Below, piece after piece: positions 310-21,803 of a stretch of 22,052 nt of DNA. The stretch is from a virus. Location: the IMG/VR virus record IMGVR_UViG_3300035698_003704, positions 1 to 22,052 of that record; one strand, 5' to 3'. Within the stretch, counting starts at the first letter, position 1. Each line of letters starts with the position of its first letter. The notes below the pieces were generated by a model that searched no databases, was not told where the DNA came from, and saw only the letters and a list, made by a program, of their open reading frames with translations. The translations under genes and the position numbers were made by a program.

Positions 310-420
310 AAGCAAAGAGACGACCTAATAAAAGTCGCCTCGATTTGTGTACACATTGACGCATTACTGCTCTGGTTGCCACACCTGAGCTATATCCCGT
401 CACTTGGCTTCTAGAAAAGC
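310..420 (-). ncRNA. Candidate small structured RNA with tRNA D-arm-like element
   Basis: Between a promoter match (427-455) and a hairpin (317-341) lies about 105 nt with no supported reading frame but clear pairing potential on the minus strand. A 5' hairpin GCTT/AAGC is followed by an outer TGACG/CGTCA stem (357-402). That stem encloses GCTC-A-GGT/ACC-A-GAGC, whose sequence TATAGCTCAGG looks like the A-box and D-arm of a tRNA. Next come a 10-base palindrome TGTGTACACA and then the terminal hairpin. There is no matching acceptor 3' strand, anticodon arm or T-arm, so this is not a normal tRNA. It could be a phage regulatory RNA, a tRNA mimic or a decayed tRNA. It sits between the amidase and the leftmost gene. 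Confidence 0.4.
317..341 (-). terminator. Terminator-like hairpin ending the candidate small RNA
   Basis: On the minus strand GAGGCGAC and GTCGTCTC form an 8-bp stem (one G-U pair) around a nine-base loop TTTTATTAG. The stem is followed by TTTGCTTATA, a weak T-rich tract. It would end the small RNA and insulate the leftmost gene. Confidence 0.5.
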
Positions 421-496: not shown

Positions 497-1354
497 TTAT
501 TTTGTTTGCAGATATTTCTTGTAAGCTGCCAAGAGTTCATCCCTCTTTAGCAACGCCCCGATAACAATTTTTGCCGTCTGTGCTCGAGTCATTTGTTCTG
601 CCGGTCTCCATGTTTTGTCATCGAATCCTCTCATTACTCCTGTGTCGATCATTGCTTTTGCATAATTTGTGAACCACTCTTTGTCTGGAATATCTGTAAA
701 ATCTCCGATCTCAGTAGGGATATTGCTTGGAATTTCTGGCGGAATTTCTGCCTTTGCGATCATTCCTGTATTTCTAAACTCCTGAACTTGTCCAATAAGA
801 TTGCCCGGACAAACCGTGTAATTTGCAAAGTCGCTCCATTGACCATACTTCAATGCTAGGCTTCTCCCCTTCAATTCCTTGTGTCCGTAAACATCCTTTG
901 CTGCTGCTGGAAATTCTGGGTGTTGTGTAGTGAGTTCTTTCAGTAAACTGTTTAAAGCCTCTAGCTGAGCTTGGCTTGGGTCTTGTCTTGTAAGGTCTCC
1001 ATGCAATGCTATTCCAAGAGAAATATCATTTGCATTTGTTGCCTGCCAAGTTATGTCCTCGAGATCATTGCAGAAATAAATCTTTCCACTTCTCCCGATA
1101 GTGAAGTGATAAGAAAGTGTAGGGGCATAAGCTGGTTTTAAAGAGCTTCCCCAATTTTTATTGATGTGATACTGAGCCATGCTATTATTCTTGGCATTCT
1201 CATCATATACATCTGGTAAAATCCCTCCGGCTGTGTGGTGTACTGCTATAAGTTTGACTTTCTTGATAGCTCTACGCCTCCATGCTCGTGAGGGTTTGTC
1301 AGATTGTGGTAGTTCGTTTCTAACATCGACTACATCGATTGTTTTGAATTCCAT
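497..1354 (-). CDS. N-acetylmuramoyl-L-alanine amidase endolysin with SLH domain
   Basis: This 285-residue protein is the likely endolysin. Residues about 30-195 form an Amidase_2 / T7-lysozyme-like / PGRP fold. VHHTAGG (His39 the probable first zinc ligand), YHFTIGRSGKIY (82-93), GHKEL (His158) and CPG (Cys182) supply the expected His-His-Cys zinc site that cleaves the amide bond between MurNAc and L-Ala. A Pro-rich linker (about 204-215) leads to one S-layer-homology repeat (about 216-270), with FTDIPDKEW, GFDDKTWRP and MTRAQTAK matching the SLH pattern. SLH domains normally bind pyruvylated secondary cell wall polymer, so here it would be the cell-wall-binding module. SLH proteins usually carry three repeats; only one is present. 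There is no signal peptide, so a holin should release it; the membrane protein at 1373-1666 begins just upstream. No Shine-Dalgarno is seen before the ATG. Confidence 0.92.
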   Translation of the reverse strand: MEFKTIDVVDVRNELPQSDKPSRAWRRRAIKKVKLIAVHHTAGGILPDVYDENAKNNSMAQYHINKNWGSSLKPAYAPTLSYHFTIGRSGKIYFCNDLEDITWQATNANDISLGIALHGDLTRQDPSQAQLEALNSLLKELTTQHPEFPAAAKDVYGHKELKGRSLALKYGQWSDFANYTVCPGNLIGQVQEFRNTGMIAKAEIPPEIPSNIPTEIGDFTDIPDKEWFTNYAKAMIDTGVMRGFDDKTWRPAEQMTRAQTAKIVIGALLKRDELLAAYKKYLQTK

Positions 1355-1372
1355 AATAAGATTTTTTAAGTG

Positions 1373-1666
1373 CTACTTTGCAGGAGTAACCGGTGGAGCT
1401 GGTACTTCTGTAGAAACCTGATTTACAACAGTGCTTAATACAGGAGTTTTCTTCATTTCTTTTGCGAAGTTTACAAAACCAGTAACACTCAATCCTTCAA
1501 CAAGTCCTAAAATTCCGTTTGTAACCGTTGGAGGTGCTACCGCCAAAGAAAGTGCTATACCTAACAACCCTGCTATTAGTGGCAAAAATCTACTTGAGAC
1601 TCCAAGCATTTTTGCTATCTGAGTCACTCCGATGACTCCGAATCCTACTAAAATTAGATGTTCCAT
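1373..1666 (-). CDS. Small two-helix membrane protein, probable holin
   Basis: This 97-residue protein has two hydrophobic stretches (roughly residues 3-20 and 27-45) around a short turn GVSSRF, a third semi-hydrophobic stretch near 52-66, and then a charged, Pro/Val-rich tail ending EVPAPPVTPAK. Its size, membrane segments and position 18 bases before the amidase start are what a holin needs: a pore that lets the signal-less endolysin reach the wall. I cannot assign it to a named holin family from sequence alone. A second, more recognisable holin-like gene lies at 4413-4913, so this one could instead be an antiholin or an unrelated membrane protein. TTAAC occurs 11 bases before the ATG; there is no Shine-Dalgarno. 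Confidence 0.65.
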   Translation of the reverse strand: MEHLILVGFGVIGVTQIAKMLGVSSRFLPLIAGLLGIALSLAVAPPTVTNGILGLVEGLSVTGFVNFAKEMKKTPVLSTVVNQVSTEVPAPPVTPAK

Positions 1667-1695
1667 AATGTGTGAGTTAATAAATTCTTATCGAA

Positions 1696-1717
1696 GGACA
1701 GAATGGACATTCTATCC
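1696..1717 (-). terminator. Weak hairpin between the acidic protein and the small holin
   Basis: On the minus strand GGA-T-AGAATG and CATTCT-G-TCC can pair with one mismatch (GGATAGAATGTCCATTCTGTCC), followed by TTCGATAAGAATTT. The innermost bases must open for a realistic loop. It may weaken read-through or protect a processed 3' end. No strong T-tract follows. Confidence 0.3.
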
Positions 1718-1729
1718 TCGCACAAAACT

Positions 1730-2005
1730 TTATTGAGCTGGTGCTGTCTCGGCAGGTTTTTCAACCGCCTCAGCAGGTGCAGCAGGTTCAGCCGGAGCTT
1801 CAACTTCTGCGTCAGCTTCGTCCTCTTGTTCGCCAACGGGCGGTACTGCTTCAAAAACAGTATCATAAACAAGAGTAAAAGGGTGTCCGTTGTATTTAAC
1901 AACAGAGCCAGACTCTAAGACAATTTTCACTGTCTCCGGAGCTGTTTTTTCCTCAGACTGTTCGTCTTTGGATTCCTCGTTTTGAGGTGTTTCTTCTTCT
2001 CCCAT
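1730..2005 (-). CDS. Acidic Pro/Ala/Glu-rich protein of unknown function
   Basis: This 91-residue protein has three parts: an acidic N-terminus (about 1-25, rich in Glu, Gln and Lys); a short ordered-looking core (about 26-56, VKIVLESGSVVKYNGHPFTL) with alternating hydrophobic residues suggesting beta strands; and a C-terminal Pro-Ala-Glu-Val tail (about 57-91). The tail resembles a flexible linker. No family is recognised. I chose this frame because its ATG follows the glycosyltransferase stop by 11 bases and has CTAACC nine bases upstream, the motif seen before other starts here. Another frame over the same DNA gives only a Leu/Lys/Arg-biased shadow. Its place between wall-modifying enzymes and the lysis genes might suggest a surface or lysis-control role, but nothing in the sequence demonstrates that. 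Confidence 0.65.
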   Translation of the reverse strand: MGEEETPQNEESKDEQSEEKTAPETVKIVLESGSVVKYNGHPFTLVYDTVFEAVPPVGEQEDEADAEVEAPAEPAAPAEAVEKPAETAPAQ

Positions 2006-2016
2006 AGGATAAAAGG

Positions 2017-3339
2017 TTAGGTGATATTTTTAGAATTTTGTATTTCTTCGTAAGTTTTTTCGAAGATCGGAAGCCATTGCTCTTTTACTATCTTTTCCCA
2101 AGTGTTTTGTAGTACCCAATCGTAAGCAGCACTCACCTTGTCCAGCACTTCCGGCTTGCTTTTATTCTCCCATACATACAGCATTTTTTCAACCATCTGA
2201 TCTACGTCTGTAAGTGGTCGTGGTGGGTCATCTACTAATTCAGGCAGTTGAATATGACAAGATGGTCCTACTCCACTATCTACCAAAAATCCTCTTTCTT
2301 CGTTTATTCCAATAATCTCTGTGAGACTTGAATTATTCGGGAAAATTACGGGAACTTTACAACCCATCGCTTCCGTAATACTAAGTCCCCATCCTTCACC
2401 AAGAGTCGTGCTCACGCACATGTTGGCTATGTTGTAGGCTTGATTTACTTCTTCGATAGGTGCTCCCTTGAAAGCGTCTTTTCCAGTAGGGAGTTTTGGG
2501 AAGATAATATCGCCGTCCTCTAGCCCATAATATTTTGCTCTGTTTTTTATGCTTCCTCCAATATCATTTTCTTTGCAGAAAAGGAATAAAATTGAATTTG
2601 GGACTTTCTTTTTGAATCCTGCATAAGCCTCGAGTGTTCGTGCCAAATCTTTTCGTCCCTGATTTCTATTGACATTCAACACTACACATGCGTCTTCTGG
2701 GATTCTTAGACTTGCTCTTATGTTCTTTTTCTGCTCCCCGTTCAACGGGTAAAAGTCTTTTGTGTTTGTACCGTGATTGATAACCTCAAGTCTATCTTTT
2801 AATTCTGGACATTTTTTAAGAACCTCTCTTTTCCCGAACTCAGTATAAACAACTGGACGATCAAAAAACTTCGGTGTCTCAGCCCATCGGTGACTAATAT
2901 TTGCTGCGTCAACGGGGAAGTAAAAAATACTCCTGAAATTTCTATTCATTCGAGTTTTAAGATTGATTAGTTTGTCGACAAAATCCTGTACAACGTAAGG
3001 GTCTTGCACACTCCAAAAAATATCAAACTCATTTTCAAACATATATTTTGCTAACTTCTCACGCCCGAACATGTCTGTTTTAAAGCCTTGCTTTTCGTCT
3101 TCTGGCGAAACATAGGCTGCCGGCAATATTTCGTAAGGCACTGCTGGTTTTATAAATCTACCGAACTCATCTACCTCAAAATGGTGATTGATTCCCCAAA
3201 CCGTGATCTCAAATTTTCCTGTTTTATAAAGCTCTCCAAGTATATTTCTTGCAACTTGTCCGAAACCTGAAAAACAGACCGGAGAGTCACAATACGCTAG
3301 AAGTCGAATCTTTTTTGGTTTTGTTTGTAGATTTTCCAT
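2017..3339 (-). CDS. GT4-family glycosyltransferase (GT-B fold)
   Basis: This 440-residue protein is the length of a two-domain GT-B glycosyltransferase. The N-terminal Rossmann-like half begins IRLLAYCDSPVCFSGFGQVA, with a glycine loop at about 24-27 for the acceptor site. The C-terminal half has NRNQGRKDL (about 224-232; Arg/Lys contact donor phosphates in this family) and EGWGLSITEAMGCKVPVI, which contains the family's EX7E signature (Glu315, Glu323) that holds the nucleotide sugar. It would transfer a sugar from a nucleotide donor to a glycan; donor and acceptor cannot be read from sequence. It lies 35 bases downstream of a pyruvyl transferase, suggesting that both act on one surface polymer. 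No membrane segment or signal peptide is visible, so it is probably cytosolic. No Shine-Dalgarno precedes the ATG. Confidence 0.9.
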   Translation of the reverse strand: MENLQTKPKKIRLLAYCDSPVCFSGFGQVARNILGELYKTGKFEITVWGINHHFEVDEFGRFIKPAVPYEILPAAYVSPEDEKQGFKTDMFGREKLAKYMFENEFDIFWSVQDPYVVQDFVDKLINLKTRMNRNFRSIFYFPVDAANISHRWAETPKFFDRPVVYTEFGKREVLKKCPELKDRLEVINHGTNTKDFYPLNGEQKKNIRASLRIPEDACVVLNVNRNQGRKDLARTLEAYAGFKKKVPNSILFLFCKENDIGGSIKNRAKYYGLEDGDIIFPKLPTGKDAFKGAPIEEVNQAYNIANMCVSTTLGEGWGLSITEAMGCKVPVIFPNNSSLTEIIGINEERGFLVDSGVGPSCHIQLPELVDDPPRPLTDVDQMVEKMLYVWENKSKPEVLDKVSAAYDWVLQNTWEKIVKEQWLPIFEKTYEEIQNSKNIT

Positions 3340-3374
3340 AGATTTTAGTTGTTATTAGTTTATTAAAGTTTATT

Positions 3375-4274
3375 CTAATTGTCAATCTTTTGCAACTGAA
3401 TTTTTAATTTCTCAATATGCCTGATTGCCATGTTCTTGTTTACTGGCTTTTTTTCGAACACACTTTTGTATCTTCTGTCGCAACTTTTCACTGCTTTGTT
3501 TTGAGCATATGCCATAACGAGACCGTGATACCTGCATGTGACTACTTTTGTGCAATCAGTAATTATTCTACAAGCCTCCTCTGGGGTAACGTCTAAAAAT
3601 TCATTTAGTCCCCTAGAGCTATTTATTTTTGCTGCAAGCGTCATGCCTAAGTCTTGTTCTTCCCTTGCCATAGTCAAAATAAGCCTTTTCTTCCCCATGT
3701 GTGCGTGCTCTTTCCATTGCTGTTGAAACTCCTGACTTTGACCGTCTGTCTTTGTCGGAATAAAAACAACATGATCGGCTCTATGATCGAAGAAATGATA
3801 TTTTGATGGTTGCATTAAATACACCAAATCTGGGTAGTATTCTACGTTTGCTTCTGGTGCTATCTGCTTGATGATCTCAGCGTCCTTAGTTCCCCTTACA
3901 GTAACGATGTCTGCTTTATTCAAGTACGGTCTCCATCTTTCCATTTGCTTCCACCATTCGCCTACTTGCGAAAAATCTCCAACTTTCATCATCGGTTGAA
4001 CTCCGCAAGAAATAAAAGAAAAAGGTTTTCCTGCCTCTATAGCGGTTTGAAGATACTGAGACATGTAATTGAAATGTGGAGTTTTGTTATCGTAAATCAA
4101 GCCTCCTCCGCCAATAACGACGTAATCAGCAATTCTTACTAAAGCTGGGTCTGGGTATGGATGTGTGAAGATCAACTCGAAGTCTTCACCTAAAAATTTT
4201 TCAAATAGAGTTTTGTATGCGTTGTCTCCAAGATTAAAATATCCTGACGCTCCGCAAAATAATATTTTTTTCAT
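3375..4274 (-). CDS. Polysaccharide pyruvyl transferase (CsaB/PssK-type family)
   Basis: This 299-residue protein matches the polysaccharide pyruvyl transferase family. It starts KKILFCGASGYFNLGD, the family's N-terminal G-x-x-G...NLGD loop; then VVIGGGGLIYD (52-62), VTVRGTKDAE (about 124-133), the YPDLVYLM region (147-154) and CRYHGLVMAYA (247-257, His250). Family enzymes transfer pyruvate from phosphoenolpyruvate to a sugar as a ketal. CsaB does this on the secondary cell wall polymer that SLH domains bind. A phage copy beside a glycosyltransferase and upstream of an SLH-bearing amidase suggests modification of that polymer. The exact substrate is inferred. Other members are glycosyltransferase-like in fold and may act on exopolysaccharide. 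The start is the first ATG, with AAACCC just upstream. Confidence 0.85.
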   Translation of the reverse strand: MKKILFCGASGYFNLGDNAYKTLFEKFLGEDFELIFTHPYPDPALVRIADYVVIGGGGLIYDNKTPHFNYMSQYLQTAIEAGKPFSFISCGVQPMMKVGDFSQVGEWWKQMERWRPYLNKADIVTVRGTKDAEIIKQIAPEANVEYYPDLVYLMQPSKYHFFDHRADHVVFIPTKTDGQSQEFQQQWKEHAHMGKKRLILTMAREEQDLGMTLAAKINSSRGLNEFLDVTPEEACRIITDCTKVVTCRYHGLVMAYAQNKAVKSCDRRYKSVFEKKPVNKNMAIRHIEKLKIQLQKIDN

Positions 4275-4412: not shown

Positions 4413-4913
4413 TTAGCTTTTTTGAGTAGGGATTATGTTCTCTCCTTGCACTGGCTCTTTAGTTTTTGGTTTACCATACTTATCTTCCTCGTGTCCTAGA
4501 TATTGGCAAAGCCTTTCACTCACCCACTTAGGCAAACTTACTCCTAATTGATGTGTGTTTTCTATTATACTCAAAACCTCCGTTACAGCCAAATATACAA
4601 CGATAAAATCCTCTACCCACACAAGGATGTCTTGAAGCCGTGTAAGCTGATGTGCTGCAATTATCAATGTGAAGTATAGGATTAGCTTGTACGCCGTTCC
4701 TTTGAAGCCCTTAGAGCTTAGGTTTCGATTTTTTACGCCCTTCATCACACCGGTCACGGTATCAAGTATCACCAATATGAACAAAACCTCATAGGCGAGC
4801 ATATTCTGTCCAATAGCACTAGTGATCGCAACAATGATAGCCGAGTAGACCGACTTGATCGAAAGCGACTGTACGAGCGATTGTAGCTTCAAAATTATTG
4901 GATTTATTGTCAT
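4413..4913 (-). CDS. Phage holin, Holin_4/toxin-secretion holin type
   Basis: This 166-residue membrane protein has hydrophobic segments at about 22-38, 41-58, 74-90 and 100-117 and a polar, charged C-terminus. FILVILDTVTGVMKGVKNRNLSSKGFKGTAYKL carries the marks of the Phage_holin_4 family: an Asp in the second helix, a basic loop with SSK-G, then a third helix; the VYLAVTEVLSIIENT segment also fits. (Segments here are quoted in parts: LDTVTGVMKGVKNRN at 50-64 and SSKGFKGTAYK at 67-77.) Such proteins permeabilise the membrane at lysis. It is separated from the amidase by the glycan enzymes, unlike the compact holin-endolysin pairs of many phages. AAACCT lies immediately before the ATG; no Shine-Dalgarno. 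Confidence 0.85.
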   Translation of the reverse strand: MTINPIILKLQSLVQSLSIKSVYSAIIVAITSAIGQNMLAYEVLFILVILDTVTGVMKGVKNRNLSSKGFKGTAYKLILYFTLIIAAHQLTRLQDILVWVEDFIVVYLAVTEVLSIIENTHQLGVSLPKWVSERLCQYLGHEEDKYGKPKTKEPVQGENIIPTQKS

Positions 4914-4930: not shown

Positions 4931-5302
4931 TTAGACCTTTGCTTTTTCAGGCACTTTCTCGCTCTTTTTTTTAGTTTCTTCGTCCCATAATTCAGTCTTA
5001 CTCATCTCACCCGTTTTATTGTCATAAACTTCTTTTGTTTTTGGGTCATAGGCTACTTCCATATCTTCATCCCAAGAAAGTTTCTTTTTATCAACAAAAT
5101 CAGGTTGTTTTTTCTTTTTTAGAAGAACGATTGGCTTACCATTACTATCCTTCACAATCCGTAAAGCACAAGTAGAATGAAGCGGATTTTCTACCTCAAC
5201 ATAAGGAAATTTTGACAAAGATTCTTCGCCATCGCTCATCCCTATAATCTTTAAAGTTTTTGGATGATAAAAAATTTTCCTGTGTATTTCTGAGTGTCCC
5301 AT
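4931..5302 (-). CDS. Unknown charged protein following the tail fibre
   Basis: This 123-residue protein is rich in Lys, Glu and Asp. It opens MGHSEIHRKIFYHPKTLKI and has a second half with YDPKTKEVYDNKTGEM, a repeat-like pattern of Tyr/Asp plus Lys-Thr. No signal peptide, membrane helix or family signature is recognised. The start codon lies two bases from the fibre stop, so the genes are probably co-translated. By position it could be a fibre accessory, attachment or chaperone protein. The C-terminus is a Lys/Glu-rich tail. There is no Shine-Dalgarno; TTAAC lies 13 bases before the ATG. Confidence 0.7.
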   Translation of the reverse strand: MGHSEIHRKIFYHPKTLKIIGMSDGEESLSKFPYVEVENPLHSTCALRIVKDSNGKPIVLLKKKKQPDFVDKKKLSWDEDMEVAYDPKTKEVYDNKTGEMSKTELWDEETKKKSEKVPEKAKV

Positions 5303-20057: not shown

Positions 20058-20717
20058 CTAGCTAAACAATCCTTTGAACATTTTATTGCTGTTTTTGTCG
20101 TCCGCTTCATCGCCGTTCATCCCCTTTTGAGTAGATGTCGCAGCAGCAGACTTATTGATTTTTTTCACATCTGTTTTAAGATCGGACAAATCTTTAACAA
20201 ATGGTGCAAGGGTTTTCTTGAGGACTTTTTCGAGGTCGCTTTCTTTTTCTTCTTTTTCTTCTTCTTCTTCTTCCTCCTCCTCATCGGATTCCTCCTCAGA
20301 GTCAGATTCCTCTTTTTCTTCTTCTTCGTCTTCGTCTTCATCTTCTTTCTCATCTTCGTCTTTTTCATCAGCGTCCTCCTCATCTTCTTTGGACTCGTCA
20401 TCATCAGATTCACCTTCATCAGCGTCATCATCTTCCTCAGACTTAGACTTTGTGTCTTCGTCCTCAGTAGAGTCGCCTTCATCAGTGTCTTTTGATTCAG
20501 ATTCTTCCTCATCAGATTTTTCCTCCTCATCGCCCTCGTCTTTTTTGAAGTTCATAGATTTTTCGACAGCAATGTCTACTATATCTCTGAGCTCCTGACG
20601 ATTGACATTCACACTACCTGCCTTGTCCAGCACTCCATCACTTAGGTCTACACCTTGTGTCTTTAGGAATTTTAGGACGGCGGTTAATGCTTTTGCCACT
20701 TGTTTTTTCTTGCTCAT
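20058..20717 (-). CDS. Possible internally started scaffold protein (Nu3-like)
   Basis: An in-frame ATG at 20717 opens MSKKKQVAKALTAVLKFLKT, a natural-looking start (the capsid protein also begins MSK). It would give a 219-residue protein made of a helical head, an acidic tract and a coiled-coil tail, which is a typical scaffold composition. The DNA before it (CCCACAAATTTACT, with AAAACCC further up) is unlike protease coding sequence and resembles the gaps before other starts here; its translated form is a bland linker. Protease and scaffold sharing a 3' end is known from lambda C/Nu3. This is an inference from sequence appearance. Confidence 0.4.
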   Translation of the reverse strand: MSKKKQVAKALTAVLKFLKTQGVDLSDGVLDKAGSVNVNRQELRDIVDIAVEKSMNFKKDEGDEEEKSDEEESESKDTDEGDSTEDEDTKSKSEEDDDADEGESDDDESKEDEEDADEKDEDEKEDEDEDEEEEKEESDSEEESDEEEEEEEEEKEEKESDLEKVLKKTLAPFVKDLSDLKTDVKKINKSAAATSTQKGMNGDEADDKNSNKMFKGLFS

Positions 20718-21803
20718 AGTAAATTTGTGGGCTAAAGAATTAAGTGTTTTATAAGGGTTTTGTTGAGTTTGAAGGCTCTCTGCTAGATTATTTAATTTGT
20801 TTTTAGTTGTCAACACTTTCTTTGATTTTTTCATTTTACTTGTGTCTTTAAAAACAAAGGCTCTATCCGGTGTAAATGTTTTGTCTCGACTTTTGAAACT
20901 GTCGATCAAAGCCTCCGGACATGCTGGTCTATCCACTAGAGAAATTTCAGTTAGCTCAAGCTCAAGGATTTCGAAACCTCCTGTAAATACAGTCACAGTT
21001 TCTTCGTCCTCTTTGCATGTAAGCTCTCCATCTGCATATTGTTTGAGTGTCAGTTCATCCATCTCACCGGCTGCATTAACAACGCTCACTGGCACTTCGA
21101 TCTCTAGCCAAATTGCGTCTATAATATTTCCACCGATTGAGAATCCTTTATAAACTGTCTCCACTACTTTTTCCCACGCAGAATCATCAACGACCTTTAC
21201 GGTGATTGAAAGATTCTTCTTTTCCATGTTTAGATCATGTTCTTTGATCGTACCTACTGCACTTGGACCGTGCATTTCACGGATATTGCTGAATTCAAGA
21301 TATTCCGGCAAAGCCTTCTCTATGGCTGTGATACGCACAATATCACCATAAGAATCTATGGCTTCGCTTGTCGCAATTCCTGAAACTAACTTTTTATCTT
21401 CGTCCACTTTTGAGAAAGGGACGTACATTGCTATCTTCTCTATTTTTGCTGGCTTCTCATTAACTTTGACCATGTTTGCAGTAGAAACCTTTTTAGTCTT
21501 CTTGGTTTTTTTAGTCTTTTTTACGCTTACAACTTTTTTTGCTTTAACCTTGATCTTCTTAGTTTTTTTATCCTCTAGTTCTTGCTTTGCTACTTTCTTT
21601 GCTTCGAACTCCTCAAGAGGTGTAAGAAATTTCTCTTTAGGAATAGGCTTTTTCTTTTTCAACTTCTCAATATGCTCCTGAACCTTCTTTGGGTCAGTAA
21701 CATCAAGAGTGCCTTTTCTGTTCAAAATAGCTTTTCGAACTTTCATATTCTTGCTGCGTTTTGCTTTAAGTTTTTGCATAACGCTATCTGCAACTAGAGT
21801 CAT
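20058..21803 (-). CDS. XkdF-like prohead protease fused to an acidic scaffold-like domain
   Basis: This 581-residue protein has four parts. Residues 1-118 are strongly basic and low-complexity (KKTKKTKKTKK at 95-105). Residues about 119-306 are an XkdF/S78-type prohead protease: SGIATSEAIDSYGD (141-154), REMHG (His178), YKGFSIGGNI (Ser222, the likely nucleophile by comparison with the family) and LTEISLVDRPACPEALID (284-301). A Lys-rich linker follows (307-362). Residues 363-581 are scaffold-like: helices, a roughly 100-residue Asp/Glu/Ser tract (422-523), a coiled coil (523-551) and a tail. The protease should cut scaffold during capsid maturation. The Met at 363 (20717) may be an internal start for a separate 219-residue scaffold, like lambda Nu3. 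A Met at 111 is another possible start. GATTAACC lies nine bases before the chosen ATG. Confidence 0.85.
   Translation of the reverse strand: MTLVADSVMQKLKAKRSKNMKVRKAILNRKGTLDVTDPKKVQEHIEKLKKKKPIPKEKFLTPLEEFEAKKVAKQELEDKKTKKIKVKAKKVVSVKKTKKTKKTKKVSTANMVKVNEKPAKIEKIAMYVPFSKVDEDKKLVSGIATSEAIDSYGDIVRITAIEKALPEYLEFSNIREMHGPSAVGTIKEHDLNMEKKNLSITVKVVDDSAWEKVVETVYKGFSIGGNIIDAIWLEIEVPVSVVNAAGEMDELTLKQYADGELTCKEDEETVTVFTGGFEILELELTEISLVDRPACPEALIDSFKSRDKTFTPDRAFVFKDTSKMKKSKKVLTTKNKLNNLAESLQTQQNPYKTLNSLAHKFTMSKKKQVAKALTAVLKFLKTQGVDLSDGVLDKAGSVNVNRQELRDIVDIAVEKSMNFKKDEGDEEEKSDEEESESKDTDEGDSTEDEDTKSKSEEDDDADEGESDDDESKEDEEDADEKDEDEKEDEDEDEEEEKEESDSEEESDEEEEEEEEEKEEKESDLEKVLKKTLAPFVKDLSDLKTDVKKINKSAAATSTQKGMNGDEADDKNSNKMFKGLFS
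20235..20540 (-). repeat. GAA/GAG/GAT/GAC triplet tract encoding an acidic run
   Basis: About 100 codons of the scaffold region are nearly all Asp, Glu, Ser or Lys, read on the plus strand as runs of TCTTCTTC and CTCATC. The longest pure run is 9 or 10 Glu (near residues 508-516). It is a candidate for length change by replication slippage. The plus-strand frames across it are Ser- or Phe-rich shadows. Confidence 0.7.

Follow-up and report, generated by a model that had tools for sequence, protein, structure and literature searches.

A siphovirus-type late gene block with a pyruvyl transferase, a GT4-type glycosyltransferase and an SLH-tagged endolysin, possibly serving two independent functions

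The virus record IMGVR_UViG_3300035698_003704 was analysed as one window of 22,052 bases, which is probably a fragment, with attention to three genes for a polysaccharide pyruvyl transferase, a GT4-type glycosyltransferase and an amidase endolysin carrying an S-layer homology (SLH) motif (Table 1). The gene order is that of siphovirus late genes, with nearly all genes on the minus strand. Profile matches identified a gp6-like connector, a tail assembly chaperone, a tape measure protein (TMP) and Dit; the tail tube match scores below its cut-off, and the tblastn matches of the major capsid protein are phage capsid proteins. The initial annotation of this DNA had placed the three genes in one phage block and assigned them to their families, and both the assignments (PF04230, PF00534, PF01510 and PF00395, all far above chance) and the phage context hold, since the genes lie in a siphovirus late block with two holin genes. 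The transferase, glycosyltransferase and amidase are all intact minus-strand open reading frames (ORFs) within positions 497-4274, but they are not contiguous. A 91-aa ORF, with zero matches in Pfam, PHROG and NCBIfam, and a holin-like gene separate the glycosyltransferase from the amidase, and a second holin gene precedes the transferase. Downstream of the amidase, a terminator-like stem-loop in the sequence probably marks the end of the late operon.

Table 1. Features of the late gene block in the window; G001 is one of the related virus records discussed in the text.
Feature	Position	Strand	Basis
Polysaccharide pyruvyl transferase (PF04230), 299 aa	3375..4274	minus	Pfam, AlphaFold2, Foldseek, conserved residues
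GT4-type glycosyltransferase, 440 aa, E315-x7-E323 motif	2017..3339	minus	Pfam, phrog_2170, motif position
Endolysin, Amidase_2 plus one C-terminal SLH motif	497..1354	minus	Pfam; residues by position and alignment
SLH motif, residues 219-261	572..700	minus	PF00395; PDB matches
Holin-like membrane protein, 97 aa	1373..1666	minus	phrog_1299 holin, E=1.3e-8
91-aa ORF between glycosyltransferase and holin-like gene	1730..2005	minus	ORF
Holin, Phage_holin_4_1	4413..4913	minus	PF05105, E=1.3e-20
123-aa protein	4931..5302	minus	70% identity to relative G001 over the first 56 residues
Glycine-rich tail-fibre-like protein, 1130 aa	5304..8696	minus	ORF; 38% identity to relative L028 (G001)
Terminator-like stem-loop, 10 pairs, downstream of amidase	317..341	minus	Consensus scan, in itself no proof of function

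The transferase is, by its profile scores, a member of PF04230 (PS_pyruv_trans; E=1.6e-22, 81.2 bits, Pfam gathering score 25.3) and not a CsaB, as it reaches 59.1 bits against the cut-off of 213.1 of the CsaB equivalog model TIGR03609. Its AlphaFold2 model (pLDDT 83.6, pTM 0.86) has a GT-B-like fold as in the yeast pyruvyltransferase Pvg1p (5ax7), which ranked second in the PDB by Foldseek (E=8.4e-7) among other GT-B folds. The residues R127, R248, H250 and K270 are invariant across five viral homologues and are the counterparts of R148, R306, H308 and K328 of CsaB, as assigned by motif and spacing and not from a CsaB alignment; the spacing from H to K is 20 in both enzymes. In CsaB of Paenibacillus alvei, binding of phosphoenolpyruvate (PEP) critically needs R148, H308 and K328, and R306 has been implicated by docking (PMC10435577). 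The initial annotation had named a lack of active-site geometry as a refutation of its reading; as far as motif and spacing show, the PEP-binding residues are in place. The acceptor side is different. The enzyme is about 100 residues shorter than CsaB, it has Lys175 near the position of the CsaB loop residue Arg207, and it has Ser10 and Tyr12 where CsaB has the acceptor-side Tyr14 and Phe16, a placement derived from the G-x-x-G-x-x-N-x-G-D motif and a Microvirga homologue, not from a CsaB alignment. The Y14A variant of CsaB had no detectable activity (PMC10435577). The protein is probably an active ketal-pyruvyltransferase, but as its acceptor the disaccharide of secondary cell wall polymer (SCWP), which a CsaB pyruvylates as ManNAc-GlcNAc-PP-lipid, has no support here.

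For the transferase, VIA-align ranked UDP-GlcNAc 2-epimerases and GT-B enzymes first because of the shared fold, and a PDB profile search gave no real match. The subfamily was unmatched in PHROGs and, by tblastn, in the sequenced phage collection, and single-sequence scans of viral contigs gave no matches, whether the transferase or the amidase was the query. One scan of genome contigs with the transferase yielded three homologues, all of them weak, distant and partial (24-32%), and thus no cellular donor or host.

The glycosyltransferase shows both features of GT4 membership, a Glycos_transf_1 domain (PF00534, E=1.2e-13) and the E-x7-E motif, and it matches the phage glycosyltransferase family phrog_2170 (E=7.1e-39). 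It is 42% identical over 95% of its length to the glycosyltransferase of Tetrasphaera phage TJE1. That phrog_2170 gene lies upstream of terminase and portal, with genes for a methyltransferase and a nucleotide-sugar epimerase nearby, and the TJE1 record (G010), unlike the window, has no PF04230 match.

The endolysin combines Amidase_2 (PF01510, E=2.7e-19) with SLH (PF00395, E=1.9e-8). Its zinc-ligand-type residues H39, H158 and C182 are invariant in five SLH-tagged phage amidases, and its predicted structure has a pLDDT of 39. The SLH domain announced in the initial annotation is present with its ligand residues, but as a single motif instead of the usual tandem three. Its elements are W227, GVMRG at 239-243 (GxxxG) and TRAQ at 256-259, and its PDB matches are SLH domains of the S-layer protein Sap and others. 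A truncated triple domain was considered and rejected, because the reading frame closes cleanly at 497 and no SLH ORF follows it, and because lysins with one SLH are common among the viral matches listed. In SLH structures, pyruvylated polymer is recognised by a conserved Trp and a conserved Gly, which contact the sugar, and by the Arg of the TRAE motif, which forms a salt bridge to pyruvate (PMC10628300). As the counterparts W227, G243 and R257 are kept in the window, it is plausible, from the residues, that the endolysin also reads pyruvylated polymer.

The described system closest to this lysin is LysBT1 of the Brevibacillus thermoruber prophage PBT1, likewise an Amidase_2-type N-acetylmuramoyl-L-alanine amidase with a single C-terminal SLH, whose Trp, GIIxG and TRAE-type motifs form the same set as in the window. 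LysBT1 binds host cells, which needs the TRAE Arg, and gives cross-linkable trimers (PMC12285257). LysBT1 differs in its Bacillota prophage origin, and the text of its paper contains neither 'pyruvyl' nor 'CsaB' (PMC12285257). Viral contigs with SLH were gathered by a DNA pattern scan for the SLH core, which gives a sample and not a census. Among the matches listed, many viral ORFs carry one C-terminal SLH on Amidase_2, Amidase_3 or GH25, and one triple-SLH amidase was present. SLH-tagged lysins are therefore common in viral contigs, among these matches, and the 2025 paper calls its own the first (PMC12285257). In the viral contigs L113, L118, L169, L124, L156 and L182, protease-like proteins carry an SLH motif at one end; by eye they are subtilisin-, trypsin- or papain-like, and they may be phage-encoded wall-anchored proteases.

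The joint presence of the transferase and the SLH lysin had been read in the initial annotation as a possible self-contained wall-remodelling system. In such a system the phage would pyruvylate the host wall polymer late in infection, and its own SLH lysin would then be anchored on the dying cell. The two genes do share one late block, the PEP-binding residues are kept, and the SLH motif retains its ligand residues, the TRAE-motif Arg among them. Their distribution points the other way, towards the lack of co-occurrence in relatives that the initial annotation had itself named as counting against its reading. An alignment-based scan retrieved the transferase in six viral records besides the window (including G001-G005), and neither an SLH domain nor Amidase_2 is encoded in any of the six; conversely, PF04230 was found in 0 of 37 SLH-encoding viral contigs among the matches listed, while the controls matched in 8 of 14 genomes. 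Of the records found, the window alone carries both. The comparison records are single contigs, most of them fragment-like, so that an absence from a single record counts for little. A Fisher test on these counts was discarded, because both sets had been selected by the traits compared. In these sequences the transferase and the SLH lysin clearly occur apart, which is evidence against a self-contained system and not a refutation. Furthermore, G005 has PG_binding_1 in its putative lysin, the transferase falls short of the CsaB equivalog cut-off and has, by motif, Ser where CsaB has the Tyr14 whose change to Ala left no detectable activity, and SLH-bearing hosts are generally expected to supply the ligand themselves. 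We consider a phage that both writes and reads the pyruvyl mark very improbable. If it were true, this would be, to our knowledge, the first phage found to provide the site on which its own lysin is anchored.

The company kept by the transferase in other phages is that of glycan genes. A glycosyltransferase-type gene lies within about 10 kb of it in five of the six other viral records. In G001, G005 and G003/G004 it is grouped with a GT4 gene of the window type and methyltransferase-like genes, the latter called by NCBIfam/Pfam for G001 and by reading of the sequence for G005, G003 and G004. The transferase of G001 (L028 5157-6551) is fused behind an N-terminal methyltransferase-like domain and is followed by an FkbM methyltransferase gene and then the GT4 gene. 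In G005 its neighbours are sugar-related genes on one side and the GT4 gene on the other, with cytidylyltransferase, LicD and a mannose-6-phosphate-isomerase-type cupin upstream. G003 and G004 have the order DegT, acetyltransferase-like, transferase, methyltransferase-like, GT2-like, GT4 and then a terminase-like gene. In G002, glycan genes surround the transferase, and a glycosyltransferase-like gene is about 8 kb away. In G001 and G005, as in the window, the cassette comes after the tail module of TMP, Dit, tail and fibre. The putative lysin of G005 (L234:10491-11597) joins a papain-like peptidase domain to PG_binding_1 beside a small membrane protein, and by their sequences the two are a probable lysis pair.

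The recurrence of the transferase with glycosyltransferase genes, and its occurrence without SLH, suit a glycan-decoration cassette best, and since SLH lysins occur in phages without a pyruvyl transferase, their ligand need not be phage-made. Both parts of the block are of known kinds: the cassette for glycan decoration, whose pyruvyl transferase is unusual, and the endolysin with its SLH tag. The reading that we favour, tentatively and at somewhat short of even chances, is that the block holds two independent late functions, the decoration cassette and an SLH lysin acting on a host-made polymer. On this account, the GT4 enzyme would attach a sugar to an acceptor, and the pyruvyl transferase would cap that sugar with ketal pyruvate from PEP. 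The acceptor would most likely be a virion protein produced at the same time, a fibre or another late protein, with a host surface glycan as the second choice. Holins and the amidase would bring about lysis, with the single SLH probably in a trimer as proposed for LysBT1, and the SLH would dock on a pyruvylated polymer of the wall, produced by the host for SLH proteins of its own. We infer the single transcript, the acceptor, the trimerisation of the SLH and the host-made ligand. A virion protein is the leading target because of the tail-gene neighbourhood in three phages and because mycobacteriophages use phage glycosyltransferases to glycosylate capsid and tail proteins (PMC12363180). The glycine-rich fibre-like protein of the window is one candidate acceptor. 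The 123-aa protein encoded next to it has an equivalent location in G001, after the tail fibre gene, and G001 was the sole match in a sequence scan with this protein.

Several points weigh against two independent functions. The virion target is drawn from gene position and analogy. The lysins of G001, G003 and G004 could lie off the contig, as these relatives are fragment-like. The window cassette sits between two holin genes and beside the lysin, as would be predicted if transferase and lysin were coupled. Finally, characterised ketal-pyruvyltransferases, CsaB and WcfO among them, use lipid-linked precursors of glycans, a preference that is a better fit to a host envelope polymer than to a protein-bound glycan (PMC6801904).

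This last point favours a redecoration of the host surface, in which the glycosyltransferase and transferase cap a host envelope glycan and mask a receptor, either against superinfection or against the re-adsorption of progeny to debris, and the SLH lysin is unrelated. Host pyruvylation governs the adsorption of some phages, as csaB mutants resist AP50c and Thrax1 (PMC9703825). Eggerthella lenta prophages also carry a pyruvyl transferase domain protein in a glycan operon; that gene, likened here by description only, is described as one of exopolysaccharide biosynthesis in a prophage (PMC8778435). The cytidylyltransferase, LicD and sugar-isomerase genes of G005 fit the same explanation. Against it, signs of early expression or of lysogeny are missing from the window, a location in the late structural and lysis block leaves little time for polymer remodelling, and flippase, polymerase and wall ligase are all absent from the window. 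Redecoration of the host is rather unlikely, if the strongest competitor of two independent late functions. If the decoration of either target is true, phages of one host lineage pyruvylate a virion or host-surface glycan; no report of virion pyruvylation was found in a limited search of the open-access literature.

The target of the cassette might instead be some other product of the phage, for instance nucleic acid or a soluble sugar; its genes might also be passengers without a current role. Foldseek did match the transferase model to the DNA glucosyltransferase of phage T4 (1y8z), but this match, among GT-B folds, reflects the shared fold only. Passenger genes are at odds with two intact ORFs that keep their catalytic motifs and recur in diverse phages. 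We judge these possibilities together to be improbable.

The translation starts of the window offer a lead to the host. A Shine-Dalgarno core precedes none of the 17 scored genes, a T stands directly before the ATG in 88% of starts (background 23%), and a TTAAC-like upstream motif is present in 65% (background 3%). G001 (L028, L090, L091) and G005 (L095, L233, L234) are likewise without Shine-Dalgarno sites, with T at -1 in 78 and 88% and the TTAAC-like motif in 44 and 31%, respectively; the backgrounds across the window and relatives are 23-31% for T at -1 and 3-11% for the motif. SLH-lysin contigs and other GT4 phages have Shine-Dalgarno sites in 60-68% of genes. Bacillota depend strongly on Shine-Dalgarno sites, and their lack in the window argues against a typical Bacillota host. 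The pattern suggests a host lineage with non-Shine-Dalgarno initiation of translation, in which an extended UAUG start is perhaps used.

Six further viral contigs encode an SLH porin of cyanobacterial type, to which a gene of Synechococcus phages, S-PM2 among them, is related. Shine-Dalgarno sites are mostly scarce in these contigs and T is often found at -1, so that a cyanobacterial-type host is possible for the window, as a lead and not an assignment. In two other cyanophage loci the T at -1 pattern is absent, and a tRNA search of the window found none. In cyanobacteria, pyruvylated polysaccharide of the wall serves to anchor outer-membrane proteins with SLH (PMC9163127). Proteins of the SLH and porin-like type were seen in the viral contigs L157, L161, L203, L228, L153 and L211, and the SLH porin of L157 shares 64-84% identity with genes of Synechococcus phages whose annotation is S-layer protein or porin.

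Some further features of these genomes were observed. Upstream of the capsid gene, the window encodes a 581-aa protein (20058-21803) with a long Asp/Glu-rich stretch, and G001 has a similar acidic protein before its capsid-like gene. Two glycosyltransferase genes of other contigs (L028 9869-11041 and L009 536-2605) have, by eye, intein-like insertions near the catalytic E-G-W/F-G motif, and the head-morphogenesis-like protein of G001 (L090 1-2526) appears to carry a similar insertion.

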